Part shown: piece after piece, positions 4,373 to 63,323 of the stretch | How positions within the stretch are numbered: position 1 is the stretch's first letter | How the letters are laid out: each line of letters begins with the position of its first letter | Source: Methanothermococcus okinawensis IH1 | Lineage (GTDB): Archaea > AGJL01 > Methanococci > Methanococcales > Methanococcaceae | DNA: 64,000 nt | Direction: 5' to 3' | Assembly (NCBI RefSeq): GCF_000179575.2 | Contig: NC_015636.1 | Coordinates: 1,341,495 to 1,405,494 of the forward strand | Program-made: the position numbers and the translations under genes | The notes under the pieces: model-generated | What the model was told of the DNA's origin: nothing | What the model saw: the letters and a program-made list of their open reading frames with translations, nothing else | Databases searched by the model: none

Positions 4373-4395
4373 TAATTTCACCTAATAATTTAATT

Positions 4396-4461
4396 TTAAA
4401 TATAATATCCCCTTCCAGTTAATGTTCTATTTAATCTATCTGAAATAATACCTATTTTCAT
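4396..4461 (-). pseudogene. Start fragment of a lost GT4 glycosyltransferase
   Basis: A 21-codon frame reads MKIGIISDRLNRTLTGRGYY and stops. It matches the first residues of GT4 transferases (compare MKIGIIANSIDD...TGIGSY at 3266) but nothing downstream fits, because the next intact gene starts only 24 bases further on. This looks like what is left after a deletion or replacement of the rest of a transferase gene. Translation of a 21-residue leader that helps express the next gene is possible but less likely. Confidence 0.55.
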
Positions 4462-4482
4462 AATTATTACCTTTTTAGACTA

Positions 4483-8488: not shown

Positions 8489-9514
8489 TTATTTCAATTT
8501 AATCCTTTCCAAATCCTTCTCAACCATCATCTTAACCAATTCTTCAAATTTAACTTTTGGTTCCCATCCGAGCTCCTTCTTAGCCTTTGAGTAATCACCA
8601 ATTAATATATCAACTTCCGCAGGTCTGAAAAATTCAGGATTGACCTTTACCAAAACCTTTCCAGTGTTAGCATCTTTACCAATTTCATTAATTCCTTCCC
8701 CTTCCCATTCAATATCAATTCCTACAACCTTAAAGGCATTTTCAACAAATTCTCTAACTGTATGGGTTTCATTTGTTGCTAAAACAAAGTCATCTGGTTT
8801 ATCGTGATGTAATATTTTCCACATACCATAAACATAATCCCCAGCATAACCCCAATCCCTTTTAGCACTTAGATTCCCCAATTCAACATAATCTTGTAAT
8901 CCATTATATATTTTGGCAACAGCCATTGTTATTTTTCTTGTTACGAATTCTGGGCCACGCATGGGGCTCTCATGATTGAACAGGATACCATTGCTCATAA
9001 ATAAGTTATAGCTTTCCCTATAATTTTTAATTGTCCAAAATCCTGCCAATTTGGAAACTCCATAAGGGCTTCTTGGATAAAAGGGTGTGGTTTCCTTCTG
9101 TGGAATTTCTTGAACCTTTCCATATAATTCAGATGTTGCAGCAAAATAAAGTTTTGAAGATGGTGAATATTCCTTCACTGCATTAGCTACATTTAAAGTT
9201 CCACCAATATTAACATCATAGGTAAATCTTGGGTTTTTAAAGGAGAATCCAACAAAACTTTGAGCAGCTAAATGATAAATTTCATCAGGTTGAATTTTTT
9301 TAATAGTCTCATCAATAAACAAATTGTCTGTAATATCTCCCCAATGAATATTTATTTGTTCCAATTCTTCCTTTGGTAGATGTTCTAAATTTCCCAAGGA
9401 ATTTTGGCTATTTCTCCTAACAATTCCATGAATTTCATATCCTTTTTCCAAAAGTAATTTTGTTAAATAGTACCCGTCCTGTCCTGTTATACCAGTTATA
9501 AGTGCCTTTTTCAT
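8489..9514 (-). CDS. gmd: GDP-mannose 4,6-dehydratase
   Basis: 341 residues, full length for the family. It converts GDP-mannose to GDP-4-keto-6-deoxymannose, the precursor of rhamnose, fucose and related 6-deoxy sugars. The short-chain dehydrogenase fold shows ITGITGQDGYYL for NADP binding, AATSELYGK with the catalytic Ser/Glu region, YGVSK as the catalytic Tyr-x3-Lys, and FNHESPMRG, all typical of Gmd. No obvious fucose synthase or Rmd reductase lies in the window; the nearby oxidoreductases may finish the pathway, or the partner is elsewhere. Confidence 0.93.
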   Translation of the reverse strand: MKKALITGITGQDGYYLTKLLLEKGYEIHGIVRRNSQNSLGNLEHLPKEELEQINIHWGDITDNLFIDETIKKIQPDEIYHLAAQSFVGFSFKNPRFTYDVNIGGTLNVANAVKEYSPSSKLYFAATSELYGKVQEIPQKETTPFYPRSPYGVSKLAGFWTIKNYRESYNLFMSNGILFNHESPMRGPEFVTRKITMAVAKIYNGLQDYVELGNLSAKRDWGYAGDYVYGMWKILHHDKPDDFVLATNETHTVREFVENAFKVVGIDIEWEGEGINEIGKDANTGKVLVKVNPEFFRPAEVDILIGDYSKAKKELGWEPKVKFEELVKMMVEKDLERIKLK

Positions 9515-9535
9515 ATTATATCACCAATAATATTT

Positions 9536-10453
9536 TTAAATATACCTATTTTCCTTTAACCATTCAACATAATCCTTAACGGCATCTTCAAAATTCCATT
9601 TAGGTTCATAACCTAAATATTTTTTAGCATTTGTTAGGTCTGCCTGAGTAAAATCTTGATAAAATTCTTCATAGGGATTATCAAAATATTCAGGTTTATA
9701 ATCAAAACCTAAAACATCATTTAAAACTTCTATAATATGATTAAACGAAACAGCATTTCCACTACCTGCATTTACAATGTAGCTCTCCTTAGCATCCAAT
9801 GCCAATAAATTTATTTGAACAATGTTTTTAACATAAACCTGGTCTCTCTTCTGTTCTCCCCATTTGAATATTCTTGGATTTTTTCCATCAGCCATCTGTT
9901 TAGCCAACTGCCAAACCATTGAGGCCATTTTTCCTTTATACTGTTCCCTTGGTCCAAAAACATTGAAATATCTTAATCCTACTATATGACTGTCAGGATA
10001 TTTTTTCATATATTTTTTAGCTATGCAGTCACATATCCATTTTGAAAAACCGTATATGTTATTTGGTTTTCCAGCGTATTCTTCCTTTTGAGGAGATTTG
10101 GCATTACCATAAGTTGCCGCAGAGGATGCATAAATAAACTTTATATCGTTTTTAACGGCAAAATTTAGAAGTCTTCTGAAACCTTCTGTATTTATTTGCA
10201 TCATTAATTTTTGGTCTTTAACTGTTGTATCTGTTATGGCAGCCTCATGAAATATAGCATCGATATCTTTAAATTTATTTAAATCAACATCTAAAATACT
10301 CTCAGAAATAACATCCCCTTCATAACCATGGAGATTTTTAAAATTCCCACTTGAAAAATCGTCTAAAACTACTGTATCGTATCCTTTATTCTGCAATTCC
10401 AATGCAATATTGGAACCTATAAATCCTGCACCGCCTGTAATAAGAGCTCTCAT
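9536..10453 (-). CDS. NAD-dependent nucleotide-sugar epimerase (RfaD/GalE type)
   Basis: 305 residues of the extended short-chain dehydrogenase family: ITGGAGFIGSN at the N-terminus, SSAATYGNAKSP, catalytic YGFSK, and RYFNVFGPREQ. The sequences FHEAAITDTT and FKWGEQKRDQVYVKN are close to ADP-glycero-manno-heptose 6-epimerase (RfaD), but in an archaeon the substrate may be another nucleotide sugar. It is the first gene of the minus-strand glycan cluster, with GAGGTAATT before its ATG, so the promoter should lie in 10454-10560. Confidence 0.8.
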   Translation of the reverse strand: MRALITGGAGFIGSNIALELQNKGYDTVVLDDFSSGNFKNLHGYEGDVISESILDVDLNKFKDIDAIFHEAAITDTTVKDQKLMMQINTEGFRRLLNFAVKNDIKFIYASSAATYGNAKSPQKEEYAGKPNNIYGFSKWICDCIAKKYMKKYPDSHIVGLRYFNVFGPREQYKGKMASMVWQLAKQMADGKNPRIFKWGEQKRDQVYVKNIVQINLLALDAKESYIVNAGSGNAVSFNHIIEVLNDVLGFDYKPEYFDNPYEEFYQDFTQADLTNAKKYLGYEPKWNFEDAVKDYVEWLKENRYI

Positions 10454-10791: not shown

Positions 10792-11889
10792 TTAAACTAC
10801 TCTTTTAATAGCATTCCATACCAAGAATGACTGTGGTTTTAATGTTTCCTCAGTAGGATTTAAGAATAAAATATTTTCCTTAATCAAATAACTGTAAATA
10901 TGTAGTGAAATCTCTTTTATAGGTATCTTATATTTGTTTTTAAATAATTTTAAGGCGTTTAATACATCTTTTTTATTGATTTCAATAATATTATTTCCAA
11001 TTTCTATTTTTGGTTTGGAATATTCCATTATTTCTAAAAACATATTTAATTTAGAGACTTCTACTTTAAGCATTTGGTTTAATATATCATCTAGTTTTTT
11101 ATATCTTATCTCATCAATTATATTGTAAATATCAGCTGGTTTTCCACCAACTAATGAATAGATTTGTTCCTTTTGTTCTTTTGGCAGTTCTGGTTTGTTT
11201 AATATTTCTTTTGCTAAGAAATCCATAAATCTTAAAGAGGTTTCCTTATCAAAATCATCAACTAAAAGATGTTTTGCCCTACCTTCGAGCTCCCCTGTAT
11301 TATAAACATATTCGGCAAATAAACTATCGGATGTTAAACAAAACACATGGCATAAGTGTTGTTCCTTTGTAAGAGATACTAAGAATTGAAATAGTTCTTT
11401 TAAAAGATATTTCTGTCCATTGGTAGTTATGTCTTTTATCATCTGCAACTCATCGAGAATTAAAATTGGAGTTTTTCCATTTTTTCTTGTTTCCAACATT
11501 ATATTATTTAGATATTGAAATGCATCATTTATTCTTTCCTCAAATAATTTGTTAAACTCTACCTCAGGAATAGGAACTCCTGTTAGTATCCGAGCTCCTT
11601 TTGTGATTAGGTTTAATACCTCTGATTTATCTTTTATAGTTTCAAGGAAATCATCCTTTTTAGTTGAAAATATCGCCTCTATAAAGTCCTTTTTTTCAGA
11701 TATTAAATAAGTCCTAAAATTTATATAAAATACTTTGTAATTATCATCCAATTTATTATTTATTATATGGTTGATTAAGGTTGTTTTACCACTGTTTATA
11801 GAGCCATAGATAAAGTATATCTGGTTAGGTTCTCCTTCGAGTATTGAAGTTATTTCTTTAATTTCTTTTTCTCTGTTAAAGAATTTCAT
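10792..11889 (-). CDS. Archaeal ATPase (P-loop, ATPase_2/STAND-like family)
   Basis: 365 residues. Opens with [11 protein letters not shown], the family's usual N-terminus, then Walker [13 protein letters not shown] and Walker [11 protein letters not shown], a sensor region [11 protein letters not shown], and [12 protein letters not shown]. The C-terminal third is a likely winged-helix part ending [14 protein letters not shown]. Methanococcales carry many copies of this family; the role is unknown, though a regulatory or mobile-element link is often suggested. It is the only intact copy here and is flanked on both sides by decayed relatives. Confidence 0.87.
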
Positions 11890-12048: not shown

Positions 12049-13147
12049 TTAGGAAATAGTACTTTGAAAATCCTTCAACACTTCATTAATTGCCAATAAT
12101 TCCAACTTCCCCTGTGGTTTTAACTCCCCAGTTTTGATATTAACAAATAGTATATTCTTTTTAACTGCCCAAATTATATCATCCGTTAATTCCTCATAAA
12201 TAAAACTATCAGCATGTTTATATCTGCCAAATAAAACTAAAACATTTTTATATAATATATTGTTCTCTCTTTTCAATTTATAGAGTATCTTTTATCTGCC
12301 GAGCTCTGAATATTAACGAACTTTTACAGTATTCTTCCACATTATTATTGAGTGATTTTTCTTGGATAATATCTATTAATTTTATAAGTTTCCACCAAAA
12401 TAATGCCATACAGTTTCTATTTCTTCTAAATTAAAATTATTTTTCATTAAAAACTCTTTTGTAGTTTCATAATCAAAATCATCTACTAAGTAGTATTTGT
12501 ATCTATCCTGCAACATTGCCTCATTGTATATTTTATTTATAAACAAACTATAAGAGGTTAAAACAACCACATGACTAAGATGCCTCTGTTCAGTTAAACT
12601 TATAAAAAAGTTAAATAATTTATAAATTAAGTATCCATTTATTTTTAAATCCTCTATCACTTGAAGGTTCTTTGGAGCGGAGCGACAAAGATTTTGGAAA
12701 ACAAAGTTTTCCAAGACATCGATTATTAGTATTGGTTTTTTCCCATTATTCTTTAAATTCTCAAAAAAACATTTAGTATATAATAAATACATCCTCTGAT
12801 TTATTTTCATCTAATATTTCATTTAATAGTGTTTTAGGTACTGGAATACCCTCCAAACTGTGTGGCATATCAATTAATAAATCTTTAAAGTATTTTTTAA
12901 TATTCCTACTGTCATAAGATGAAACCTCAAATAAAACCTTTATGAACTCATCATATTTTGATATAAAGTGAGCTCTTAAATCTATATAAAAAGCAACATA
13001 TTCCTCATCCAAATTTTTAATTACTTCATTTATTAAAGTGGTTTTGCCACTATTTATAGGACCATATATAAAATATATCAAATTAGGTTCAAATAGTAAT
13101 AGTTTTTTTAAATCATTTAGCTCCTTTTTTCTATCAAAAAATTCCAT
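12049..13147 (-). pseudogene. Broken copy of the archaeal ATPase
   Basis: Three pieces in different frames line up with the intact ATPase at 10792-11889. The N-terminal piece (12773-13147) has FFDRKKELNDL and [15 protein letters not shown]. The middle piece (12382-12795) continues after a frameshift near 12790 with TKCFFENLKNNGKKPILIID and ends at a stop in the WHYFGG motif. The last piece (12049-12276) ends ELKPQGKLELLAINEVLKDF. The Walker B region carries an extra block of about 48 bases. With at least one frameshift and one internal stop it cannot give a normal protein. Confidence 0.85.
12668..12716. repeat. Short palindromic insertion inside the ATPase pseudogene
   Basis: Compared with the intact paralogue, about 16 codons are added between the Walker B aspartate and the following LQ. 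The added DNA contains a perfect hairpin (9-base arms TTGGAAAAC / GTTTTCCAA around AAA, 12695-12715) and a GC-rich part AGCGGAGCG that is unlike the surroundings. The reading frame is kept across it. It looks like a small mobile palindromic element of the kind found inside some bacterial genes, but one copy cannot prove that. Confidence 0.45.
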
Positions 13148-13340: not shown

Positions 13341-14867
13341 TTATGTAATACCTAGTTTGGATTTTATCAGATTTATAATGACATTCATAACGATTTTAAC
13401 AACCATTGCTATCTCACCGAATATGGAGGTATTATTTTTTTCCTTAGAAATATTCTTTTCTTTAATGGCATAATATCCTGATTTTGATATGTCAATGGTT
13501 ATTTTACTGTTATTTTTATCATAAACATAAGGTATGCTTTTCCAAGATTTTATCTGCTCGTCATAATATAGTATTTTTAATTCCTTGTCTTTTGGAATAT
13601 TTATGGATATTTTAAGAATTAAGGGCTTGTTAAATTCTGCATTATTTGGTGATATGTAGTAAGCTAATGTAATATTTGGAAGACTTACCTCTTTTATCTG
13701 TATATCTCCAGCTTTGCTAATTTTTGTTCCATCGGATATTATCAATGTAGCATTTCCCACATGGTTTATTACTGTGCCATATACTATATTTCCTTGATTT
13801 TGACTGTTTTTGGTGTTGTTTTCTTTTATATTGTTATTTTTATTGTTATTACTATTTATATTATTTTTATTATCTGTGTTATCTGCATCATTTTTACTTT
13901 TATTTTGGTATGTCATATTATTTGTATTGTTATCACTTTTAACTGTTTTATTTTCAGAATTTTCCTGTTTTTGATAGTTAATGTATATAATTTTACTGTT
14001 TTCATTGTTGTATTTATCTTTTGCAATTATTTTGAATGTATTGTTGCCCTCTTTTAAAGTAAGAGCTCCGGTGTAATGATTGCCTGATTTTTTATAATTT
14101 AATTTATTATCGTTTAAATAAAATTTTACATTATAATCCGATTTATCTTCAACAATTACATCAAAATTAACATTAGAGATATTATAATCTCTTTTTGATG
14201 GAGATAATATTGTTATTCTTGGAGGTTCTTTATCCGTGCTATTATTGGAGGAATTCGTATTATTAACTACTGGCGGAGCAGGTGGAACTGGCGTATTGCC
14301 TTCTATTGTTATTGCCTTATTTACTCCCCCGATATTCAAATATACAGTGGTTCCCTCTGGAATGTTGTTTGTCTTATATGAATATTTAAAATTACCATTA
14401 TCATCTGCCTTTACAGTTGTAGATGCAATGATTTTTAATTTTATAGGTTTTGAAGTGTCCTTAACAGTTCCCCAAATTTTTATATCGTAGGTTCCAGTAG
14501 GCACATTTGACTGAGAAACTGTTGCTATTCCTTCTGAATTTGCATTGGCACTTTTTGTGACCCAAATACCCATTTTTACAGAAATTGATAAATCATTTAC
14601 ATTTTCTCCAATAACTTTAAAATTATTTGGAGTATTTGGTATCTCAACATTATTCATGATATATCCATAATAGGGTGGTGATACCATAGGATTTACTTCA
14701 AACCATGCCTGACAGTTTATATCTTCATTTGGATTAGTCATTCCTGTTAATGTTAAAGTATCCCCTACTTTTGGGTTTGAGGGCGTTATTTGAATATTGG
14801 ATACTGTTGCATATGCCGATGAAACAATAAATCCAAAAATGATTAGAAATAGTGGTATTTTTTTAAT
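13341..14867 (-). CDS. Exported surface protein with shared beta domain (paralogue A)
   Basis: About 508 residues. A signal peptide (KKIPLFLIIFGFIVSS) leads into a region with ITPSNPKVGDTLTLTG, then the domain shared almost base for base with the next gene upstream. Next come a Pro/Asn linker (PVPPAPPVVNN), a second beta-sandwich-like part (RITILSPSKRDYNISN), an Asn/Lys-rich low-complexity stretch (about 310-360) and a C-terminal hydrophobic helix. It is likely a surface or S-layer-associated protein held by that helix. Start choice is notable: GGTGA stands five bases before an ATT codon at 14867, while the GTG at 14876 lies inside the binding site. Its start region overlaps the end of paralogue B. 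Confidence 0.75.
   Translation of the reverse strand: MKKIPLFLIIFGFIVSSAYATVSNIQITPSNPKVGDTLTLTGMTNPNEDINCQAWFEVNPMVSPPYYGYIMNNVEIPNTPNNFKVIGENVNDLSISVKMGIWVTKSANANSEGIATVSQSNVPTGTYDIKIWGTVKDTSKPIKLKIIASTTVKADDNGNFKYSYKTNNIPEGTTVYLNIGGVNKAITIEGNTPVPPAPPVVNNTNSSNNSTDKEPPRITILSPSKRDYNISNVNFDVIVEDKSDYNVKFYLNDNKLNYKKSGNHYTGALTLKEGNNTFKIIAKDKYNNENSKIIYINYQKQENSENKTVKSDNNTNNMTYQNKSKNDADNTDNKNNINSNNNKNNNIKENNTKNSQNQGNIVYGTVINHVGNATLIISDGTKISKAGDIQIKEVSLPNITLAYYISPNNAEFNKPLILKISINIPKDKELKILYYDEQIKSWKSIPYVYDKNNSKITIDISKSGYYAIKEKNISKEKNNTSIFGEIAMVVKIVMNVIINLIKSKLGIT
14373..14755. repeat. 383-base near-identical direct repeat, copy 1
   Basis: This block matches 15398-15780 with a constant offset of 1025 bases; I found a single difference (T at 14739 against C at 15764). 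It codes for the same approximately 127 residues in both paralogues, from the TGMTNPNED region to FKYSYK. The flanks differ strongly, so the block was made identical recently by gene conversion or by a segmental duplication. Confidence 0.93.
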
Positions 14868-14872
14868 ATGCC

Positions 14873-15898
14873 TCACCTCGACAAAGTGGTATTTTTATCG
14901 GTAAATAGCCAGTATGTTTTAAAAGGTTTTAGGTATGAGTTATTTTGGTAGATTTCACCCTCGGTAGATATTATCCTATAATATATATTGGAATTTTTGA
15001 ATAATTCATTAATTGGAATATTGCCATTTCTAAGATTCCAATCGTTGTTATTTGGTGTAGTTCCTATTAAATTGTACCCTTTATAAACAATTCTTGAATA
15101 ATTGGATTTTTTGTTGGAGTAATATACATTCATTTCTGTATCATTCTTAGTATATATAAAATATCCATAAAGTGCATTTAAACTATTATTTCTATTTAAA
15201 ATCCATTTTTGATTGCCATATGATATTATCAATTTGATATTGGAATTATTGCTAAATGATATATTTGAATTATAAGGAACAGATATGGCATTCCATCCCT
15301 TATTTAGGTATAATTTATGTCCTGCAATGGATATATTTTTGCTAATATTTCCAACAGTTAGATGTAAGATTGTGGTTTTAGGTATGGCATTTATAACCTT
15401 ATATGAATATTTAAAATTACCATTATCATCTGCCTTTACAGTTGTAGATGCAATGATTTTTAATTTTATAGGTTTTGAAGTGTCCTTAACAGTTCCCCAA
15501 ATTTTTATATCGTAGGTTCCAGTAGGCACATTTGACTGAGAAACTGTTGCTATTCCTTCTGAATTTGCATTGGCACTTTTTGTGACCCAAATACCCATTT
15601 TTACAGAAATTGATAAATCATTTACATTTTCTCCAATAACTTTAAAATTATTTGGAGTATTTGGTATCTCAACATTATTCATGATATATCCATAATAGGG
15701 TGGTGATACCATAGGATTTACTTCAAACCATGCCTGACAGTTTATATCTTCATTTGGATTAGCCATTCCTGTTAATGTTATATTATCATCTATATTTGGA
15801 ATATATGGATTTATAAATATACTTGAAATAGCACAATTTGAGTTAATCAAAAATAATCCAAAAATAACCACCATTGTAAAAAATGTTATATTTTTAAT
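14873..15898 (-). CDS. Exported surface protein with shared beta domain (paralogue B)
   Basis: About 341 residues. A hydrophobic signal peptide ending near INSNCAISS is followed by INPYIPNIDDNITLTG and the domain shared with paralogue A. The C-terminal third is different: LNKGWNAISVPYN, GYFIYTKNDTEM and TYWLFTDKNTTLS look like a small beta domain often seen in S-layer-type proteins; there is no C-terminal membrane helix. AAGGAGGGGTGA precedes the gene; the codon five bases after GGTGA is ATT (15898), whereas GTG at 15907 is inside the site and the first ATG is at 15874. Function is unknown beyond a likely role at the surface. Confidence 0.75.
   Translation of the reverse strand: MKNITFFTMVVIFGLFLINSNCAISSIFINPYIPNIDDNITLTGMANPNEDINCQAWFEVNPMVSPPYYGYIMNNVEIPNTPNNFKVIGENVNDLSISVKMGIWVTKSANANSEGIATVSQSNVPTGTYDIKIWGTVKDTSKPIKLKIIASTTVKADDNGNFKYSYKVINAIPKTTILHLTVGNISKNISIAGHKLYLNKGWNAISVPYNSNISFSNNSNIKLIISYGNQKWILNRNNSLNALYGYFIYTKNDTEMNVYYSNKKSNYSRIVYKGYNLIGTTPNNNDWNLRNGNIPINELFKNSNIYYRIISTEGEIYQNNSYLKPFKTYWLFTDKNTTLSR
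15398..15780. repeat. 383-base near-identical direct repeat, copy 2
   Basis: Second copy of the block at 14373-14755, lying within paralogue B in the same orientation. It ends exactly where the two proteins begin to differ, both in the signal-peptide-side sequence and in the C-terminal part. Confidence 0.93.
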
Positions 15899-16010
15899 AA
15901 AAATCACCCCTCCTTATGACTTAATAATTATAAAATTTTAATTATCATATTTATAATTTTTTAAATTTAAAAAAGATATATCCTAAAAAAGAAAGAAATA
16001 AAATAATTAT

Positions 16011-19000
16011 TTATTGTTGCTCTACTGCAACAATTTTTTTATCTACTGTATCGTAGGCAGTTCCTATAACATAGGCATTTGATATATTTTGTAGTTTTAA
16101 GGTAACTGAACTACTTGTTGTAGATGGACTGTATGTTGCTGATGCAGTATCTGGCGTGAATATTGTTCCTACTATATCGTTTATTTTTGATGCATTTATT
16201 GGTATTAAATCATTGTTATTTACTACTATTTCTGTTCCACTGTTTCCAGCTACTGAAACATTGAATAAGTTGTTGTTTGGATTTGTTCCAACTACATTTA
16301 AGGTTATTCCTGCATTCTTATTTATCATTGCCAATCCATATCTTACATTATGTGTTGGAGTGTCATTTATTGAGATGTTGTATATTGAACCATTGGCGAA
16401 AGGATTTGTTCCTACATAGGTTAATGTCATATTGTATTTCATTACTTCAAATCCGCCTACTGCAAGGATTTTTACATAAGTGGCATTCCATGGAGTATAT
16501 CCTCCTTCTGTAATTACTACGGCTACATCACCGCTGAAATCACTTGCTGGTAATGTCCATGTAGCCTTATTATTAGATACTGTTTGGACGCAGTTGTATT
16601 TGCTATACTGGTTCATTTCAATGAGTCCAATTAAATCACTTGCATTTCCATTGAGCATTTTATTTATGGCATTTCTTAGAGATTTTCTATTGCTTATTAC
16701 TGAAAGTGTAACATTTTTACCATTCATATTTGCATTGTTGTAGGTTATTGTAATGTTATCTCCATTGTATGATACTGTGTTGTAATTGTTCATTGCTTCA
16801 ATTACTGATTCCACACTTGCATTATCTTTAAAGTATATATCTATACCTTTGTTTGTATCCTTTTTATTAACAACATTTACATTTGCTGTTATATGTGGTA
16901 GATTAATAGTTTTAGTTCCTGCAATTGATAATGTATTGTTATCCTGCCCTGCGAATTCGATAGTTTTTCCATTTGCTATAATTTTTATTGCTGGTTTTTC
17001 TGCAACTGGCTGAGTTACTGAAACTGTTATTACAGCTGAAACATCATATACTCCATCCGATACTGTCAATGTAATATTGTAGGTTCCATCTGCTGGATAG
17101 GTTATGTTTATTGTTTTTCCACCATCGAGGTATGAAACACTCTGAGCTCCTGGTGCTGACCATGTGAATGTTAAATTTTTACCTTCTGGGTCATGCGAAT
17201 TTGACGCATTTATTAATACATTTAATCCATTTTCGATGCATGGATGATCTATTATTGGTGGTTGGTTTATTGCTTTCATACTCAATGTAAAACTTACTAT
17301 TGGGTCATCTTTTAAGAATAATATTAAAACCCCATTAGCTGCATCATATTTGTAGTAGTTTCTCTGCGTTCCGGTTCCATCATATTGTGGTATAGCTCCC
17401 AATCCTTCCTTATATACATTATCTACTGGGTTATTGCCCACTGGTATGGCTACTACTGCGTAGGTATCGTTTGTAGATTTATTAAATTTAATCTCTGTAT
17501 TTACCGTAGCTTTATTTGTATCTCCATTAATACTGATATTTTTAACATCTACTGATATATCACTTACATCTTTACTTGCAACAACTACTGGTTTTATAAG
17601 TGTTTCTGTTAAGGTTGAAGTATTTTGGATTTCTTCTGCCCTGTCTAATGCATCTTTAACATTTTCTAAATGAATTGTAGTATTTTCTATTCCAGATGTA
17701 TTTGAAGTATTTGTTGTAGGTATTGCAATATCTAACGATTTAGCCCCTACTGTGGTATTTATAACAAATGCATTTGTAGCATTATCATTTATTTCAATGC
17801 TTGTGTTTGTTGTTGTGGTTGTATTTACAACTTGCAACGAAACACTTTTACCTGAGCTCGTGGTTTTTACTTCTATCTTAGGAATTACAACATCCATCAC
17901 AAATGTTTTATTTATTTCTGGATGATTTTTCAAAGCAAATATAACTTTTGCCTGATATGATTTTCCAGTGGATAATGCTGAGGTATTTTTAATGTTACAT
18001 GTTATATTTTCAGAAGTATTTACTAAATTAGTATTTGTATTAACATTAAGACTTGTAGATGTGTTTGTTATAGTTATGCTCTTATTTTTATAATTTGTAA
18101 TGGTTATAGGAATAGATTCATCTACATTTCCACTAACAATTTTTGATAAATATTCTGGACTTATATCAAAGTATTTTAAATTCACAGTTTCAGATGATGT
18201 AGTAGCTTGGTCTTTATCGTCATATACTGTTAGTGTTGCAGTATATTTTCCCTGCATTAAGTAATTTTTTGATATTGTTAAACTGTTTGATTTTCCTGAG
18301 ATATTTTTTATCTCTTTTGTTCCATCACCGTATTTTAATACAATCTTTTTCAATTCCTTGTCATCACTTACATTTATGTTAAATGTTGCCTTTAATCCGT
18401 CAACTGAAATATCAAATTTATTTATAACTGGTTTTTCATCTACTGGTGGTGTGTATCTACCTCCACTAACTGATGGAGTAGTTTTTATTGTGGTAGATGA
18501 TACCCCCAAATTACTTGCAACATTTGATATAATGCTTGATATTGATGTGCTATCACTTGAAACTGAAATCCCTGGTGCAAATGTAAGTTTTGAAATTATG
18601 TTATCTATTATATTTTCTTTTGATACTGGAATTGGAGCTATTGCACCCACATAACCCTTAACAAAACTTACTATTGCATCCATTACTGGATTGTTGGTTT
18701 TTTCAGCATAAACAACTGCAACATCTTTATTTTCAGCATTAGGGTTTATTTTTGGAACAAACGATAATGCAGTTTTTATAACTGAATCTTCACTGCCTGA
18801 TGCAATAAATGTATTTTTTGCCTGTGTTGATACTGTATTTGTTATTATTTTTGGAACTTTACTGCCTATAATTACTGCATTTTCTGGTTTTGTAGTTTTT
18901 AATAAATCTGCTACTTTATCATCTTTATTTAATCCATAATATACAACAGGAGCTCCGAAGCTCACTGCCACAGGAATTATTTTCTCATCAAATCCTTCTG

Positions 19001-19400
19001 CAATTACAATATTATTTGCCAATTCAGGCTTTTCTTTTTTAATAACTTCATACATTTTTTGGGAAGTCTCAACCCTTGTTTCTCCCCATATTCTGTTGGT
19101 ATTTATATTTAACTTACTTATTTGGCTTTCCACATTGTTGCTAACTGCAACTGGACCTCCGACAATTATTACTTTATTAATATCATTTACTTCAAGTTCT
19201 TTTTTGGCGTTATCTGATAATTTATCTGTTGGAGTATATACCAGCTTGTATCCCATTGCTTTGGCGTATGGTGCTGCAACAACGGCATCTGCTGGGGTAG
19301 ATACTACAACTGCTACATTTTCAGTAGTCTCTGAGGCAAAACTCAAAGGTAATGCCCCTAAAATTACTATCAAAGATAGCAGTATAGAATATGCTTTCAT
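16011..19400 (-). CDS. Surface protein with cell-wall-binding type 2 repeats and PKD domains
   Basis: 1129 residues. Signal peptide MKAYSILLSLIVILGALPLSFA, then about 260 residues with repeats of the CW_binding_2 kind, best seen in KVIIVGGPVAVSNNVE, RIWGETRVETSQ and NAVIIGSKVP. A linker rich in Ser/Thr follows, then PKD-like domains near 325-415 (VLKYGDGTKEI) and 690-780 (NQPPIIDHP...HDPEGKNLTFTWSAPG), with Thr/Asn-rich beta regions between and after. There is no C-terminal anchor, so the N-terminal repeats may hold it to the S-layer or another wall polymer. CW_binding_2 is best known from clostridia; its ligand in an archaeon without that wall is unknown. GGGAGGATTTCT precedes the ATG. Confidence 0.85.
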   Translation of the reverse strand: MKAYSILLSLIVILGALPLSFASETTENVAVVVSTPADAVVAAPYAKAMGYKLVYTPTDKLSDNAKKELEVNDINKVIIVGGPVAVSNNVESQISKLNINTNRIWGETRVETSQKMYEVIKKEKPELANNIVIAEGFDEKIIPVAVSFGAPVVYYGLNKDDKVADLLKTTKPENAVIIGSKVPKIITNTVSTQAKNTFIASGSEDSVIKTALSFVPKINPNAENKDVAVVYAEKTNNPVMDAIVSFVKGYVGAIAPIPVSKENIIDNIISKLTFAPGISVSSDSTSISSIISNVASNLGVSSTTIKTTPSVSGGRYTPPVDEKPVINKFDISVDGLKATFNINVSDDKELKKIVLKYGDGTKEIKNISGKSNSLTISKNYLMQGKYTATLTVYDDKDQATTSSETVNLKYFDISPEYLSKIVSGNVDESIPITITNYKNKSITITNTSTSLNVNTNTNLVNTSENITCNIKNTSALSTGKSYQAKVIFALKNHPEINKTFVMDVVIPKIEVKTTSSGKSVSLQVVNTTTTTNTSIEINDNATNAFVINTTVGAKSLDIAIPTTNTSNTSGIENTTIHLENVKDALDRAEEIQNTSTLTETLIKPVVVASKDVSDISVDVKNISINGDTNKATVNTEIKFNKSTNDTYAVVAIPVGNNPVDNVYKEGLGAIPQYDGTGTQRNYYKYDAANGVLILFLKDDPIVSFTLSMKAINQPPIIDHPCIENGLNVLINASNSHDPEGKNLTFTWSAPGAQSVSYLDGGKTINITYPADGTYNITLTVSDGVYDVSAVITVSVTQPVAEKPAIKIIANGKTIEFAGQDNNTLSIAGTKTINLPHITANVNVVNKKDTNKGIDIYFKDNASVESVIEAMNNYNTVSYNGDNITITYNNANMNGKNVTLSVISNRKSLRNAINKMLNGNASDLIGLIEMNQYSKYNCVQTVSNNKATWTLPASDFSGDVAVVITEGGYTPWNATYVKILAVGGFEVMKYNMTLTYVGTNPFANGSIYNISINDTPTHNVRYGLAMINKNAGITLNVVGTNPNNNLFNVSVAGNSGTEIVVNNNDLIPINASKINDIVGTIFTPDTASATYSPSTTSSSVTLKLQNISNAYVIGTAYDTVDKKIVAVEQQ

Positions 19401-54760: not shown

Positions 54761-56419
54761 TTATTCTGTTTCTATTTTTGGTTTATATCCAATAGTACCC
54801 CACGAATCTGTGGCATTTGTTAATATGCCTATTATGGAGTAATTTCCTCCATCTGTACTATTATCAAGTGTATATTGAGTAGGGTCTCCATAATATATAG
54901 TGCCAGTGAAGGTTTTTGGTTTCTCTTCTTTATAGGTGGGGTTTGTATTTTCATTTCCTATTGTTGTTTTAATATTTTCATCAGATATATTTCTTAAAAA
55001 TATCCAATCTATTGAAACTGTTGCATTACTATTGGTAAATGTATTTATTGAAATTGGACGATTGTTTTTATCGATAATTAAATTTAATGGAGGGGGGAGT
55101 AATGATGAAGAGAATGATTTATTATATTCAACAGATAAATTGCCATCCATTATTGAAAAATTAACTTCTTTATCCATTCTATCTATGTCATAGATATAAA
55201 ATTTATTTAAATAATTTTCTCCATTAGTTACATAATCTCCACTAAAAACATTAGTCATATTATTAATTCTCATATACAACCATCTAGAATCCCACTCATA
55301 GCAATCCCATCCTACACCATCAGTGTCAGATTTATTTTCAAAGAATCCAACAGCCTGAGCATGCACCGGTGTGAAATTTCCTTTAAACATTAGCTCATAT
55401 CCTGGTCCGTATGTTTTATTAGTCCAAACGCTTGAACCAAGACCTTGAACAATCAATTTACCATCCTCAATATAATAGGCTCCACTAACATTCCATATAT
55501 CCCTGTTTATCCTATTATTGTTGAAATCATCAAATAATATGAATGTATTTTCTGGATTTTGTCTATCTACTTTTGTAGTTGAATTATACAATAATTTAAT
55601 ATATCCTTGTCCATTGTTATAGTTATAGATTTGATTTTTATTACATCTTATCCATATTATCGACATATTACTATTACCATTTTTCCACATATAAACCCAA
55701 TAAGGCAGTAGAACATTCCACTTATTACTTGTAGAATTCCATCCAATTATTCGTATTTCTCTCGGTGATGAAGAGTTATACATGTGACTATAATTAAAAT
55801 TAGAGTTGTTTAATATAATACAAAATGTATGATTGTTATTATTATTATCATTTGGAAAATTATCTATATTTATTTCTCTTTCATTATGCCAAGTATAATA
55901 AAAATGATTTTTATAAACATAAGGGTCTGGAATTTTGGATAATTTAATATTCTTATTTACCTCTATATTTTTATGAGATAATATAGATACATTATTTACT
56001 TCTTTTGTGTAATATAAATTAACATTACCCTTTATATTAACAACAAGTGGGTTATTGGTGTGTGTTATACTGATATTTCCAACAGATAATGTAATATTTC
56101 TATTATTTAATTTAGATAATGAATTGTTTAATTTATATGATATATTGTTTTCAATGGATTCTTTTGCATTGGATGCATTATTATAAAATGGAATATCTCC
56201 ATTCATAATAGAATAAGAAATATTTACAAATACATCATTTACTATCTTGTCCAAATTCCTATTTGCAGCAGTTTCTATGTTATTTGTGTATAATGCTATT
56301 TTCTTAATTTCTATTGAATTTTCAACATCGTTGGTTTTTATATTTACTGTTTGGTAAAATATCGTAGAGGTTAAAAATACCAATAAAACCAATACTATCG
56401 AATTTTGTGAGAAATACAT
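54761..56419 (-). CDS. Pilin-like anchored surface protein with DUF2341/LamG-like region
   Basis: 552 residues. A type IV pilin-like N-terminal helix (MYFSQNSIVLVLLVFLTST) with a short extension; then a helical part with IETAANRNLDKIVNDV (about 35-60), a beta region with many Asn, and ILFDDFNNNRINRDIWNVSGAYYIEDGKLIV, the start of a concanavalin/LamG-like fold seen together with DUF2341. It ends without a second anchor. Last gene of the minus-strand pilus-type cluster; it begins five bases after the stop of the 180-residue gene. GAGGATGATT precedes the ATG. Confidence 0.75.
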   Translation of the reverse strand: MYFSQNSIVLVLLVFLTSTIFYQTVNIKTNDVENSIEIKKIALYTNNIETAANRNLDKIVNDVFVNISYSIMNGDIPFYNNASNAKESIENNISYKLNNSLSKLNNRNITLSVGNISITHTNNPLVVNIKGNVNLYYTKEVNNVSILSHKNIEVNKNIKLSKIPDPYVYKNHFYYTWHNEREINIDNFPNDNNNNNHTFCIILNNSNFNYSHMYNSSSPREIRIIGWNSTSNKWNVLLPYWVYMWKNGNSNMSIIWIRCNKNQIYNYNNGQGYIKLLYNSTTKVDRQNPENTFILFDDFNNNRINRDIWNVSGAYYIEDGKLIVQGLGSSVWTNKTYGPGYELMFKGNFTPVHAQAVGFFENKSDTDGVGWDCYEWDSRWLYMRINNMTNVFSGDYVTNGENYLNKFYIYDIDRMDKEVNFSIMDGNLSVEYNKSFSSSLLPPPLNLIIDKNNRPISINTFTNSNATVSIDWIFLRNISDENIKTTIGNENTNPTYKEEKPKTFTGTIYYGDPTQYTLDNSTDGGNYSIIGILTNATDSWGTIGYKPKIETE

Positions 56420-56423
56420 ATAA

Positions 56424-56966
56424 TCATCCTCTAATATATAATTTAACAGTTGATATGCCTGTATTTCTTGAATAATATACTGGCATGTGAAGTTTATATT
56501 GGGTGTATGGCTGTGCATGTATGGCATCACTATAATCGATATATCGCTCATTTGAAATATGGATATTATTTTCATCTCCATAAATCACATACCAACCCTC
56601 ACTTCTATTTAATGTTAAGGTGGCAATCACATAACAAGAGGAGCTCCCATTGAAATTTTTACTTAATATCGTGTTATTATCGATTTGTAGTTTATAATTA
56701 TTTAGATGTATTGATTCATTTAACAATTTAGCCGATTCATTTTTCAGAGCTCCGCTTCCATTGTCAAAATAATATAAAAGAACAGCGTCCTGTAATACCC
56801 CACTACTTGCAAGGTTGTCCATTGTAGATACTGCCTTATCAAACTGGTATTCATTTTTAACGGCATCTACATATACATTATTATGCTCTACCACCGATAC
56901 AGACCAATACCCCATACCGATTATAAGAATAATAGTTCCAATCACCAAATCACTATCAAATATCAT
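56424..56966 (-). CDS. Minor-pilin-like protein with N-terminal membrane helix
   Basis: 180 residues. The first 25 (MIFDSDLVIGTIILIIGMGYWSVSV) form a single membrane helix, followed by a charged amphipathic stretch (EYQFDKAVSTMDNLA) and a beta part with repeats of DENNIH and PVYYSRNTG. That helix-then-globule plan is shared with archaeal pilin-like proteins, although no class III cleavage motif is evident. It overlaps the end of the previous gene by four bases (ATGA), so the two are translationally coupled. No homologue recognised. Confidence 0.65.
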   Translation of the reverse strand: MIFDSDLVIGTIILIIGMGYWSVSVVEHNNVYVDAVKNEYQFDKAVSTMDNLASSGVLQDAVLLYYFDNGSGALKNESAKLLNESIHLNNYKLQIDNNTILSKNFNGSSSCYVIATLTLNRSEGWYVIYGDENNIHISNERYIDYSDAIHAQPYTQYKLHMPVYYSRNTGISTVKLYIRG

Positions 56967-58858
56967 TTTACCACCACTATTGAAATATTTCTTGGTGAAA
57001 ATGTAATGGTTTGAAATTGTCCTCCGTTGCCATTTCCTAAATTAAATTCTATGGGGTAATCTGAATGGAGTATTCTTATTTCATTTAATCCATCATTTAA
57101 TTCATTTTTTACATCATCATAGGATGTAAATGTAGTTTTCATATTTTTACTAAATACCTTGCCATTTATAGAAAATACAACAGGAGCTCCATATGATAAT
57201 ACTGGTTCCTCAGAAATATAAGGTCTAACAAATACCCAATCTATGTCAATATATCCATTTTTTTCATTTTCAGGTGGCGTATATCCACCCGTTGAAGTGT
57301 CATATCTTCTAGCTACAAAGGAAATAGGCATATCTCCATCATATATGTAGGCATTTCTTTGATAGATATTATTTTCACTATCGTTAATTATTAAATTTAC
57401 ACTATTCATCCCATCCCTTTGGATTTCATAGGCATTCCAATTATCGTACAAACTCATAGGAAGTATGCTATAATCTATATCATTATCGTTATCTTTTGAT
57501 GATTCAAATCTTAAATGGTCACCACCCCAGTGGTAATTTGAAATTATTTGTCTATTATAATCATTATTATTACCATAATAAAAACCAGCCCACTCATCAT
57601 ATTTTTTATGGAATTTCACATGGAATTTCACTGCATAGATACTACCATATTTATCCTTAGAATATATTCTTATCCAGTCATTAGCACCAGTATAGGCACT
57701 ATAATTTAATCTTAAATAGGTATAGTTTATACCATTGGGGTATGTGCCATTTTTAAACAAATTCCAGTTGTTTCTAAAATTATTTTCATTGAAATTTTTG
57801 TTCCATTTATTTGTATCTATATGTCCGGAAGAAAAATTATCAAAAAATTCAAAAGTATTTTCTCCATTACTTTCAGATTCTGCATTTGGATTTCCATAAA
57901 GCATATATATTATAGTATGTTCATTTGGAATTAAATCCATTTTAACCCATGCTATGGTATGATGGGTATTTATTGTTTGAGGTTCAATCCAATAATTTAG
58001 GGAATTTCCGTTTTCATCTAAAAATCTAACATCTTTACAATATTTATTCATTTCTCCATCATTTATGTATGTTTGAGAATCGAATACTACCTTTACATCA
58101 TAATAACCGTTTTGATTAAAACTATGCACATTTATTGGAGAGGCATATTTCCAGTCTGCATAAGCTCTAAATCTGTTTCTGTTGTTGGTCAAAATTCTCG
58201 CAGAGAAATCTTTATTCACCCCCGATATGTAGAAATAAATGATATCCCCATTGGAACCATAGGCCTTATAACCATTTGGATATTGCGAATTATTATCCAT
58301 TGTAATTAATGGAATATAAACTACATCGTGGAATACAGTAATATCTCTCCCTTCAACCCTTTTATTAAGGTTATTTATCGAATTTTTAGTTTTTATTTTA
58401 TCAGCCACATTTGTATAACATGTAATGTTTGATTTGTCAAAAGTAATGTTGAGGATATAATTGTTGTTTGTGATATTGGCACTTGAATTATACAATTCCT
58501 CATCATATTTATTGGGATATATTATAAAATACATTTTTTTATCAGCATCTGAAAAATTGTGGTATATATCAAAAGTTTTAAGATTGTTATTTCTTAAACT
58601 ATCCACAATGTGTTCTTTAAAATTGCCACTGTTGTTGTAAAAATCCCCTGGAAATGAATATTTTTTTAAATAATAATCTTTTAACAATAATGAATTATGT
58701 GCCTCATCTATATCTTTTTTAGTTTCGAGTGCAGTTAAAAAGTTGTGGGTATATGCCATACTACCAATATAAAAAACCATGACAAATATAATAGATACTA
58801 TTATAGCTTCATAAGTAAAAATATATCCTTTTTTAGATTTAATTTTTGATTTAAACAT
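56963..58858 (-). CDS. Pilin-like DUF2341 surface protein
   Basis: 631 residues. The N-terminus KSKKGYIFTYEAIIVSIIFVMVFYIGSMAY is like a class III/pilin leader (basic, Gly, then a long hydrophobic helix with an early Glu). A middle DUF2341 domain (VKVVFDSQTYINDGEMNKYCKDVRFLD, IEPQTINTHHTIAWVKMDLIPNEHTIIYMLYGNP) leads into a LamG-like segment from EFFDNFSSGHIDTNKWN. The family is found in archaeal surface proteins of unknown ligand, likely carbohydrate binding. The ATG at 58858 has GGTGAAATT before it. Confidence 0.78.
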   Translation of the reverse strand: MFKSKIKSKKGYIFTYEAIIVSIIFVMVFYIGSMAYTHNFLTALETKKDIDEAHNSLLLKDYYLKKYSFPGDFYNNSGNFKEHIVDSLRNNNLKTFDIYHNFSDADKKMYFIIYPNKYDEELYNSSANITNNNYILNITFDKSNITCYTNVADKIKTKNSINNLNKRVEGRDITVFHDVVYIPLITMDNNSQYPNGYKAYGSNGDIIYFYISGVNKDFSARILTNNRNRFRAYADWKYASPINVHSFNQNGYYDVKVVFDSQTYINDGEMNKYCKDVRFLDENGNSLNYWIEPQTINTHHTIAWVKMDLIPNEHTIIYMLYGNPNAESESNGENTFEFFDNFSSGHIDTNKWNKNFNENNFRNNWNLFKNGTYPNGINYTYLRLNYSAYTGANDWIRIYSKDKYGSIYAVKFHVKFHKKYDEWAGFYYGNNNDYNRQIISNYHWGGDHLRFESSKDNDNDIDYSILPMSLYDNWNAYEIQRDGMNSVNLIINDSENNIYQRNAYIYDGDMPISFVARRYDTSTGGYTPPENEKNGYIDIDWVFVRPYISEEPVLSYGAPVVFSINGKVFSKNMKTTFTSYDDVKNELNDGLNEIRILHSDYPIEFNLGNGNGGQFQTITFSPRNISIVVVK

Positions 58859-58966: not shown

Positions 58967-59452
58967 TTATTCATTTTTTAAATAATTTTTATTTTTATTA
59001 TTAATTATCCCTATTTTTAATAATATTTTAACCCATATAAAATTTAAAATTAAAGCCACTGGAAATATTATAAAACTTATTATATCATGAATGGTAGTGT
59101 AATCCGCTAAATAAGAAGAATTTTTTAAAATAAATATTATTCTTAATATATTTGTAAGTGTTATAATAATTATTCCTACAATTGAATATATTAATTTATA
59201 TTTAATGGGTGTTTTAGGAGTTCCAAATACATAAGCCAAAAATAATGACATTTCAAAAGAGCATGTGCAGGCAGGCATTATAGAAAATATATTTCCATTG
59301 TAAATAACATTGTTTTCAAAATATGGTGTCGTCAGTAAATAACCAACTATAACAGCTAATATCTTAGCAATTTCCATCTCAAAAGTTCTTAAAAAAAGAT
59401 ATGTTATAATTAATAATATTAAAAAATTTACTAAATATCTTTTATTTTCCAT
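58967..59452 (-). CDS. Archaeosortase/exosortase family transpeptidase-like enzyme
   Basis: 161 residues with about five membrane helices. The three catalytic positions of the family are present in order: Cys62 in MPACTCSFE, Arg104 in LTNILRI, and His122 in TTIHDI. In the usual signature the residue two after the Cys is Gly; here it is Cys64, which is odd. The family cuts a C-terminal sorting signal and attaches the protein to a lipid or other carrier. Its gene overlaps the prepilin gene by 11 bases and lies next to a 1013-residue PKD protein with a sorting-like tail. Confidence 0.8.
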   Translation of the reverse strand: MENKRYLVNFLILLIITYLFLRTFEMEIAKILAVIVGYLLTTPYFENNVIYNGNIFSIMPACTCSFEMSLFLAYVFGTPKTPIKYKLIYSIVGIIIITLTNILRIIFILKNSSYLADYTTIHDIISFIIFPVALILNFIWVKILLKIGIINNKNKNYLKNE

Positions 59453-59669
59453 GGGTCGTGACCTCTTTTATTCCATCAACCTGTTTCATAACATTGTTAT
59501 CGGCGGTGGTCGTGATTTCAGTGTTTGAATTTTCAGCAGTGGTTGATGAGGATTTCACATGTTTTAAATAATAAAATGAAGCAATTGAAGCTACTGCAAC
59601 AGCAGCAGCCAATAATATAGCGAATTCTAATGATAATTGCCCCTTGTTTGAAAATATTTTTTTTATCAT
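59442..59669 (-). CDS. Class III signal peptide prepilin (DUF361 type)
   Basis: 75 residues. [20 protein letters not shown] contains the class III prepilin motif K-G-Q-x-S-x-E: the EppA-type peptidase would cut before Gln10 and leave the hydrophobic assembly helix ([22 protein letters not shown]). The rest is a short Ser/Thr-rich part with no conserved globule. Such small pilins can form a pilus core. It overlaps the PKD gene by four bases and the archaeosortase gene by 11 bases. Confidence 0.85.
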
Positions 59670-62600
59670 CTATACCACCTACCTATATAAGCTATTGTTA
59701 TAATGGTAGTTATGAATAACAGTATATTTATTGGTAAAGGAATCGGTATGCTTCTTTTTATTCCCCCTACATTGATTGAAACAAATCTTATGGTTGAATC
59801 CTTATTTCCATCATTATCTACAATAGTTAATTTAACGGTATATGTTTTACTGTTATTATATTTGTGTGAAATTATTTTGTTAGTGGTGGTTGTATTAGTG
59901 CCATCTCCAAAATCCCATATATATTTTACAATTTTTCCATCTATATCATAAGATTTTGAAGCGTTAAATGTCACATTTGAGCCATTAACTGTAAAATCAA
60001 ATATTGCTATTGGGGGATAACTTGTCATCCCTTCAATGAATATTGGTTTTTGCACTGTATCGCTTATGCCTACATTATTCCAAACTGTTAATGTTATGTA
60101 ATAAGGTCCTTCTTTTGGGTAGATGTGGCTTGGATTTTGTTTATTTGATGAAGTTCCATCTCCAAAATCCCATGTCCATCTAACAATTTTTCCAGGTGTT
60201 GAGTTTGACTTATCTATAAAGTTTATCGTTGTATTAACCTTTAATGAAGAAGGATATCCGAAATCTGCTTTAACATAATATACAGTTAATATCTTTGATA
60301 TTGAACTTGAAGCGTTTAATTCATCATGAACTGTAAGTGTAACGGTGTAATTTCCAGGGTTGTTGTATGTATGGGTTATTATAGGATTTGTTGTATTTGC
60401 ATTAAATCCATCTCCAAAATCCCATGAATAATTTATACCACTTTCTTTGTCATATGATGACAAAGCATTAAATATTACTTGTTTATTAACTTTTGGATAT
60501 GTTGGTGAATAGGTAAAATCAGCCACTGGTGGATTATTTATAACTTTAAATTCAACAATTGTGGAATTTTTACCTCCCATTCCATCCCAAATTGTTAGAT
60601 TTGCAGTGTAATTTCCAGGTTTAAATTTGTGAGTTACTACTTTTAATTCATTTGATGAATAATTCCATACTATATTTCTTGAACTATTATAAACGGTTAA
60701 GTTAAATCCATATATTTTTGCCATTGGGGAGTTTTGGGGAATTGTATAATTGCCTATTTTATTTCCCTTATAATCATATTCTGGAATATTTCTATTTGCA
60801 TCTGGGTCATGACTATTTAATGGATTAAAGGATACCATATCAATATAACTTGCAGGATTTGGATAAACATATAATTTTGCTACTGGATTTTTATTATCAA
60901 TTATATACACAGTTTTTCCATTTTCACAACGTGCCACTTTCATATCTATGTGATATACACCTTCGGATGAGTAACTATGGTTGAGAGTATATGGGGAGTG
61001 ATACGTTTTAATAGAAATAGAATTTCCATCTCCAAAATATATGTTGTGAATTTTATTTATATAATGTGCTGGTTCAACTATTGTGATATTTATTGGAAAG
61101 TTTGTTGGGGCTATTGTAGGATTGGCATAAATTTGAGGATAACTATTATAACCTCCAACACCTATTGGTGAAGGAATACCTACTTCGATATTTCCATATT
61201 CATCAACAATAAACACATGAGGATAGTAAAGACCTGAGTTTTTATATTTATGCGTTGGAGCTTTTTTAAAAGAAATTGTTCCATCTCCAAAGCTCCACAT
61301 AATAAATATTGGATTATTTACTGGAGAGCAGTTAAATTTAACTTTTTTATTTACAGAAACCTCTGTGCGACTTGCAGTAGCCGTTATATCAATATAATAT
61401 CCATCTTTCAATTTAACATCTGATTTATTTATTGGATTATCTGAATAATAGTATAAATCAACTGTATGATTTTCTTTATCATATTCATAATCATAACTTT
61501 TTTTATCATGTGTTTTTGATGGATGAAAATTGTATTTCGTATTTCCCACATCATCAACAACTATAAAATTCAAGGTATCCGATTTCCACCAGCTACCTTT
61601 TCCATAGCTCATCCAAAAGAATGGCCACATAAACGGAAATTTGTATTTATGGTAAGATGGATTAAATGAATTTTTATGAGCATAATTTGTTTCCTTTCCA
61701 TCCCCAAAATCCCATTTCCACAATTTTCCCCAAGCTCCACTCATTTTAAATTTTATAGAATCATTCACATTATATGTCATTTTATATGGATTAACATATG
61801 TATTTCCTCTGTTATCGTTATGTTTGCCTGAACTATTATATACATAGGTATGAGCTTCTCCATTGTAGTGATTAGGCCCCATGACCCAATATATATACCC
61901 TCCCCTATGTCTTTTTACATGTATTCCCTCATCTAAATAACCAACCATAACCCTTCCATAATCATCAACAACTAAAACCCTTGGAAAATAAAATCCAGGT
62001 TTTGTATAGGTATGTGTTGGAGATTTTTCAAAGGAAAATGTTCCATCTCCAAAACTCCACATAGTAAATATTATATTTCTACTTACCGAATAACTAAATT
62101 TAACAGTGTCTCCTTCTACAATTTCAGTTTTATCAGCATTTACATTAACTTGTGTTGTATCTATACTTAATCCAGAAAATTCTTCATTCATTTTAATGTT
62201 TGAGAAGTATTTTATTATAACAGTATTATTTGAGCCGTTGTATAAAATATCCCAAGTAGTTTTAGAATTTGAAGGACTACCATTAAAAATATATTTTGTA
62301 TTGGAGATGTCCCCCACTACAAGCCAGTTATAAGTCAATGCCTTAGAATATGCAGTATTATTTAGATATCCGCACCATGATACTGGATATGGAAATGGAA
62401 TGTTATATTTATGTGTAACTATTTTATTAGAACCATAATCTGTTTCTGTTAAATCCCCAAAATCCCATTTTGTAAATCCGCTATTTATAATATTTTGGGA
62501 TATGTTATCTTTTGCTAACGCTTTAAATGTTAAAGTATCATTTACGTTATATGCAATAATATAAGAGTTATAGTTATTTGTGTAGTTTGAGCTATTTGTT

Positions 62601-62707
62601 ATATTCATAGTATCTGAGTGAATTGGAATTATATAACCATTTGATGACCATAGAAATCCTCCAATACCAAACAAAATAATTATCTGAATTATATATTTAG
62701 TATTCAT
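59666..62707 (-). CDS. Giant PKD-repeat surface protein with sorting-type C-terminus
   Basis: 1013 residues. After a signal helix ([20 protein letters not shown]) come up to eight PKD-like domains, shown by W-x-F-G-D-G cores: [84 protein letters not shown]. The tail is [30 protein letters not shown]: short Pro-rich motif, one membrane helix, basic end, the layout of archaeosortase substrates. The start at 62707 follows GGTGAAATT. It ends overlapping the prepilin start. Likely an adhesin or stalk protein, held by lipid or membrane after sorting. Confidence 0.82.
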
Positions 62708-62885: not shown

Positions 62886-63323
62886 TTATTGAATTTGAAT
62901 TGAAGTATTTTTTAAAATATAATATCTACTATTATCGTAAGTTATGTTTATGGTTTTATTTAGGTTTTTTCCCGATGATGATAGGATATCTCCTGTTATA
63001 TTAACCCCCTTATCAGTAGGTATAAAAAATATAGTTCTTGTTGTATCTACAACAATGCTTTTATTGCCAAAATACAGAGTATATGATTTAAGACCTATTG
63101 GTTTTAATTCCATTGATATAGTTACATTTTTTGAATAACTTAGTAAGGCATAATTTTCAAAACTATCTGCAATTGAATAAAGCCTATCGGCTAATTCAGC
63201 ATTTTTAAAACTTTTAGATGTATTAAACACATTGTAATATATTAATGTAGATATCAACAATAAAAACATAATTGCAAGAACTGCATCAATAGAAATTTGA
63301 CCTTTTTTATAATAAAGTTTCAT
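62886..63323 (-). CDS. Class III signal peptide pilin-like protein
   Basis: 145 residues. [26 protein letters not shown] has the prepilin pattern K-K-G-Q-I-S-I-D with Asp in place of the usual Glu at +5, then a hydrophobic helix. The globular part is beta-rich ([32 protein letters not shown]). Single gene at the start of the minus-strand pilus-type cluster, separated by 178 bases from the PKD gene. I chose the ATG at 63323; a GTG three codons earlier is inside the binding site. Confidence 0.8.

Follow-up and report, generated by a model that had tools for sequence, protein, structure and literature searches.

An ArtD/PIP-CTERM trio among the epd pilus genes of Methanothermococcus okinawensis IH1 and its probable role as a surface-anchoring partner of the pilus

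What an archaeosortase does beside a pilin is the question raised by a locus of the heat-loving, methane-producing archaeon Methanothermococcus okinawensis IH1. Knowledge of archaeosortases comes mainly from haloarchaea, in which they anchor the S-layer and other surface proteins. In the stretch of DNA analyzed here, the window (64,000 nt, NC_015636.1, 1,341,495-1,405,494), an archaeosortase gene overlaps the gene of a small class III prepilin, which in turn overlaps the gene of a long PKD-repeat protein (Table 1). A preliminary description had suggested that a dedicated sortase, its apparent substrate and a pilin are made together and that the sortase fixes the subunit or the tip protein of a pilus.

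Table 1. Genes of the trio, its sorting signal and the flanking pilus genes, in window coordinates.
Feature	Position	Strand	Remarks
PKD-repeat surface protein	59666..62707	-	1013 aa from ATG; N-terminal signal and PIP-CTERM tail; proposed ArtD substrate
PIP-CTERM sorting signal of the PKD protein	59669..59749	-	motif, membrane helix, RWYR; genome place G000:C2:1401163-1401243
Small class III prepilin	59442..59669	-	75 aa; processing site KG/QLSLEF; alignment of 15
Archaeosortase D (ArtD)	58967..59452	-	161 aa; TIGR04175
Pilin, EpdC counterpart	62886..63323	-	same cluster as the G015 gene carrying the published epdC insertions
DUF2341 protein with pilin-like N-terminus, MMJJ_08210 counterpart	56963..58858	-	PF10102 94 bits; cluster and position
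180-aa protein, EpdH counterpart	56424..56966	-	sequence (MIFDSD start) and position match the EpdH family
DUF2341 protein, EpdI counterpart	54761..56419	-	PF10102 53.6 bits; cluster and position; start is ATG 56419

The coordinates bear out the overlaps described earlier, i.e., four bases (ATGA) between the PKD and prepilin genes and eleven bases between the prepilin and archaeosortase genes, and a purine-rich, ribosome-binding-like stretch precedes each of the three starts. The PKD protein has a signal-peptide-like N-terminus, is matched by the Pfam families PKD_4 (280 bits) and PKD (234 bits) and ends, as had been noted, in PIPLP, a membrane helix and RWYR. This end is recognized by the NCBIfam model PIP-CTERM (TIGR04173) with 44.2 bits (cut-off 30), the match covering residues 1019-1045 of the long open reading frame, which are its final 27 residues at the extreme C-terminus. 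The archaeosortase, for which a comparison with the known Art models had been proposed, is an ArtD (TIGR04175, 198.6 bits, cut-off 125). Its Cys, Arg and His are invariant in 15/15 aligned sequences, at AC[TS], N-I-x-R and H-[DN], respectively, residues that we take to fit a sortase active site. The prepilin matches TIGR04205 (86.9 bits, cut-off 65; NCBIfam) and carries the class III signal PF04021 (38.3 bits; Pfam), and in the alignment of 15 sequences a Gly or Ala precedes Gln+1 and a Glu stands at +5. A sequence search of the PDB found no entry similar to ArtD and nothing noteworthy for the prepilin.

Further PKD domains occur elsewhere in the window in a secreted protein of 1129 aa (16011-19400, minus strand), together with one cell-wall-binding repeat 2 domain, which is unusual on a methanogen surface protein. 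Two adjacent secreted proteins of 511 and 344 aa (13341-15907, minus strand) have no Pfam match; over >100 residues their N-terminal regions are almost identical. An archaeal ATPase_2 gene is split into two overlapping frames (12382-13147, minus strand), probably as a frameshifted copy, and adjoins an intact paralogue at 10792-11889.

How closely ArtD and the PKD protein belong together was surveyed in 36 Methanococcales genomes, which also constituted the sample of the phylum-wide ArtD search. ArtD scores above its cut-off in 15/36, and each of these 15 genomes encodes exactly one PKD protein of the PIP-CTERM type, the other 21 none. The PIP-CTERM model itself matches once in each of 14 ArtD genomes and in no other genome of the 36; in the fifteenth, G013, the same PKD protein was found by homology, its tail being missed by the model. 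At its cut-off the TIGR04205 prepilin is likewise specific to the ArtD genomes (15/36). ArtD thus looks dedicated to a single PKD protein, as had been supposed. The order and adjacency of PKD protein, prepilin and ArtD are kept in 14/15 ArtD genomes, and in all 14 with an adjacent trio both junctions overlap, which argues against a chance arrangement. The three genes form one unit, in agreement with the idea that their products are made together, and the opposite case, sortase genes of relatives never standing beside such proteins, did not occur. In G035 a different repeat region replaces the N-terminal part of the PKD protein, and the PKD/PIP end is retained. In G009 the PKD gene (L195:7052-10105) and the prepilin-ArtD pair (L088) lie on separate contigs, neither of them beside pilus genes.

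The surroundings of the trio could be identified with the help of published insertion coordinates from Methanococcus maripaludis JJ, in which transposon mutants had been screened for natural transformation (PMC10133366). Of these, 33/33 usable coordinates in nine epd-operon genes land in the expected genes of genome G015, as do those in artE and MMJJ_16440; one coordinate printed for MMJJ_08230 (753,363) lies outside the gene, is probably a misprint and was left out. From this fit it follows that G015 is strain JJ or has JJ coordinates, and that the window genes flanking the trio correspond to those of EpdC, MMJJ_08210, EpdH and EpdI. All four are present in order around it; the window pilin is 48% identical over 97 aa to the G015 epdC gene. 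The flanking DUF2341 proteins, which had been considered minor or tip components, are pilus-operon proteins and positional counterparts of MMJJ_08210 and EpdI, and DUF2341 proteins in such loci were proposed to be PilY-like tip proteins (Makarova et al., 2016, PMC4858521). Both DUF2341-type proteins encoded by the G002 operon are short (358 and 294 aa; L079:7221-8297 and 8814-9698), and DUF2341 itself is not matched anywhere in this genome, yet the trio is kept.

The usual run is thus pilin, trio, DUF2341 protein, 180-aa protein and DUF2341 protein, and the trio lies among these epd type IV-like pilus operon counterparts in 14/15 ArtD genomes from two families. In G035 it is located inside one contiguous operon bounded by the gene of the pilin peptidase EppA and the second DUF2341 gene; eppA and epdA are not in the trio's operon in the window genome, where eppA is found at ~360 kb and the trio at 1,400 kb. 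Relatives without ArtD have this run but not the trio; in Methanococcus the run closes the eppA/epd operon, whose EppA scores 527 bits. In G023, which belongs to the window's own genus, the same flanks enclose a gap of 66 bases where the trio would be, and the pilus proteins are 63-68% identical to those of the window.

In ArtD genomes the trio occupies the slot between EpdC and MMJJ_08210; in strain JJ this slot contains the gene MMJJ_08230, encoding a protein unrelated to the trio with a sorting-signal-like tail. Most members of this family have 157-185 aa, an N-terminal signal and a tail composed of K[TSA]PI[PSD], a helix and a basic end, the Methanococcus copies having KLPI or similar. Assignment to PIP-CTERM was rejected, as the layout is similar yet TIGR04173 does not match, for the four Methanococcus copies not even at E up to 10; nor does any NCBIfam sorting-signal model recognize the family, and a scan of the genome contigs found only two relatives. 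A single-sequence structure prediction for one member (pLDDT 62) yields a beta-sandwich that weakly matches carbohydrate-binding modules (TM ~0.35); given the low pLDDT and the weak structural match, a carbohydrate-binding function was not deduced. Insertions in MMJJ_08230 were recovered in both screens for uptake defects (PMC10133366), and they may be polar on the downstream genes, since these are themselves required. The accessible part of that report refers to MMJJ_08230 as an uncharacterized protein and draws no connection to ArtE. Many relatives have an empty slot, so the pilus as such requires neither cassette.

A connection between MMJJ_08230 and ArtE is suggested by their distribution. 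By profile search the MMJJ_08230 family and ArtE agree in 27/27 near-complete genomes, 22 having both and five neither, and the family is nearly always single copy in ArtE genomes; the four discordant genomes are each 81-89% complete. The joint loss corresponds to two independent events on the species tree, too few for statistical proof. An in-frame deletion of artE was shown to abolish transformation and to be complemented in trans (PMC10133366); the published transformation data concern ArtE, not ArtD. The neighborhoods of artE contain only housekeeping genes and no adjacent substrate gene. A tail-only profile found further secreted proteins in ArtE genomes, ending in TKTPIPLGAIILTLIAIPLIILRKKVK and similar; in the five near-complete genomes lacking ArtE no match had an E value below 0.03. 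This ArtE-type tail is not covered by any NCBIfam model. In some genomes several proteins with such tails seem to be candidate ArtE substrates.

A tail K[TS]PIPLGAxILTLI...LR..K is common to unrelated secreted proteins in ArtE genomes (L200:2957-3484 and 4017-4559, L202:2047-2583, L203:295-915, L206:1248-2099, L209:1705-2235) and is a candidate ArtE sorting signal. Genes of proteins with ArtE-type tails repeatedly adjoin a lipoprotein gene (L153:6910-8240, L200:4017-5392, L201:2561-3921, L209:1705-3050), and the tailed protein at L153 is a GH114 glycoside hydrolase by its Pfam match. A secreted nuclease, MMJJ_16440, is required for transformation in M. maripaludis (PMC10133366); directly upstream of its orthologue lies a gene of the MMJJ_08230 family in G003 and G033, and another gene with an ArtE-type tail in G035. 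The window itself encodes a secreted SNase-domain lipoprotein related to MMJJ_16440 (30201-30797, minus strand; PF00565, 83 bits), which is 56% identical to the orthologue from G033.

Taken together, we consider it probable, at roughly 0.6, that the trio is an ArtD/PIP-CTERM sorting cassette serving the epd type IV-like pilus, with the PKD protein as its anchored surface partner. The N-terminal signal would direct export of the PKD protein, and the C-terminal helix would hold it; ArtD, translated from the same overlapping message, would cut at the PIP motif and transfer the protein to a membrane lipid, a step proposed by analogy to ArtA in haloarchaea (PMC7157517). The result would be a long lipid-anchored PKD surface rod beside the pilus; its location next to the pilus genes is observed, and its action there is proposed from this position. 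The small prepilin, probably cut by EppA, would be a dedicated pilin of the epd pilus: with 75 aa it falls in the size class of the major pilin of M. maripaludis (74 aa) and, like the proteins that EppA is likely to process, it has Gln+1 and Glu+5 (PMC3875500), which makes it probably a pilin of the same apparatus. In Methanococcus, which is without ArtD, the MMJJ_08230 family, as proposed ArtE substrate, would fill the same slot. As the screen for transformation defects also hit MMJJ_08230, both cassettes probably provide a surface protein that is anchored by an archaeosortase and assists the pilus in attachment or DNA uptake. Tentatively, and at somewhat less than even odds, this could be extended to the notion that anchored surface proteins are a regular part of pilus-based DNA uptake in Methanococcales, with ArtD/PKD and ArtE/MMJJ_08230 as two pairs that can each fill the same slot of the epd operon; if both pairs serve uptake, this would explain why deletion of artE abolishes transformation. 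The anchoring of MMJJ_08230 may thus be a reason for the involvement of an archaeosortase in archaeal DNA uptake, and the occurrence of ArtD and candidate ArtE substrates in the same pilus-operon position gives both enzymes a concrete, testable role.

The trio could instead be a self-contained surface-anchoring cassette for the envelope or an adhesin, sharing the transcription unit of the pilus genes but having no function in the pilus. The separate location of its parts in G009 and the many genomes with a pilus operon lacking the trio speak for this, as do the identities to G002, which amount to 61-69% for the window trio proteins but only 37-52% for the pilus neighbors. This contrast and a well-supported four-genome group in the ArtD plus prepilin tree that conflicts with the rpoB tree suggest that the cassette may have moved as one unit; an AU test for horizontal transfer of the trio gave p = 0.505. 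A cassette unconnected to the pilus is nevertheless unlikely, as the trio is found at pilus genes in nearly all ArtD genomes of both families, comes with its own pilin and has its slot taken in Methanococcus by an unrelated protein of the sorted type.

If ArtD joined the PKD protein to the pilin rather than to lipid, a covalently fixed pilus adhesin would arise as with the Gram-positive pilus sortases. The overlap of the three genes and the restriction of the pilin to ArtD genomes at its cut-off would suit such a linkage, but the characterized relative ArtA attaches its substrates to lipid (PMC7157517) and apart from the general class III pattern the aligned pilins conserve nothing that could serve as acceptor, making it very improbable. 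The related claim of the preliminary description, that the sortase fixes a subunit or tip of the pilus, found no support, as the sorting tail is on the PKD protein, not on the pilin, and nothing places the PKD protein in the filament. ArtE, with its apparently multiple candidate substrates in some genomes, could lead one to regard ArtD as a general surface sortase that stands beside the PKD protein incidentally; at its sensitivity the 36-genome survey contradicts this, a single PIP-CTERM protein being present in each ArtD genome and none in the rest, which leaves this possibility hardly any weight.

Several elements of this picture are known from other contexts. The trio as such is already catalogued, since the NCBIfam models for ArtD (TIGR04175), PIP-CTERM (TIGR04173) and the class III, ArtD/PIP-CTERM-associated prepilin (classIII_w_PIP, TIGR04205) describe this system and all three window proteins score above their cut-offs; the model names do not mention the surrounding pilus operon. 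A description of this location was not found in the literature searched, a body of work standing apart from the founding paper (Haft et al. 2012), and some of this context may have been published before. In that literature PIP-CTERM was not found mentioned, titles and abstracts on archaeosortases and pili do not make the link, and the word "sortase" is absent from the main text of the 2016 census (Makarova et al., PMC4858521). ArtA of Haloferax volcanii, acting on PGF-CTERM proteins, belongs to the same superfamily (TIGR04178 match) and its substrates share the three-part layout of the tail; in contrast to ArtD, with one substrate per genome beside a pilin, ArtA has many diverse substrates including the S-layer protein (PMC7157517). 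The epd/EppA pilus of M. maripaludis provides the counterparts of the genes around the trio, epdC, MMJJ_08210, epdH and epdI, but lacks the trio itself, its slot being occupied by the short and unrelated MMJJ_08230 with a different tail. By score, ArtD is most closely related to ArtE, which reaches 49.5 bits with the window protein and stays below the cut-off, and the two differ in their location: artE lies outside the pilus operon among housekeeping genes, whereas artD is part of the trio.
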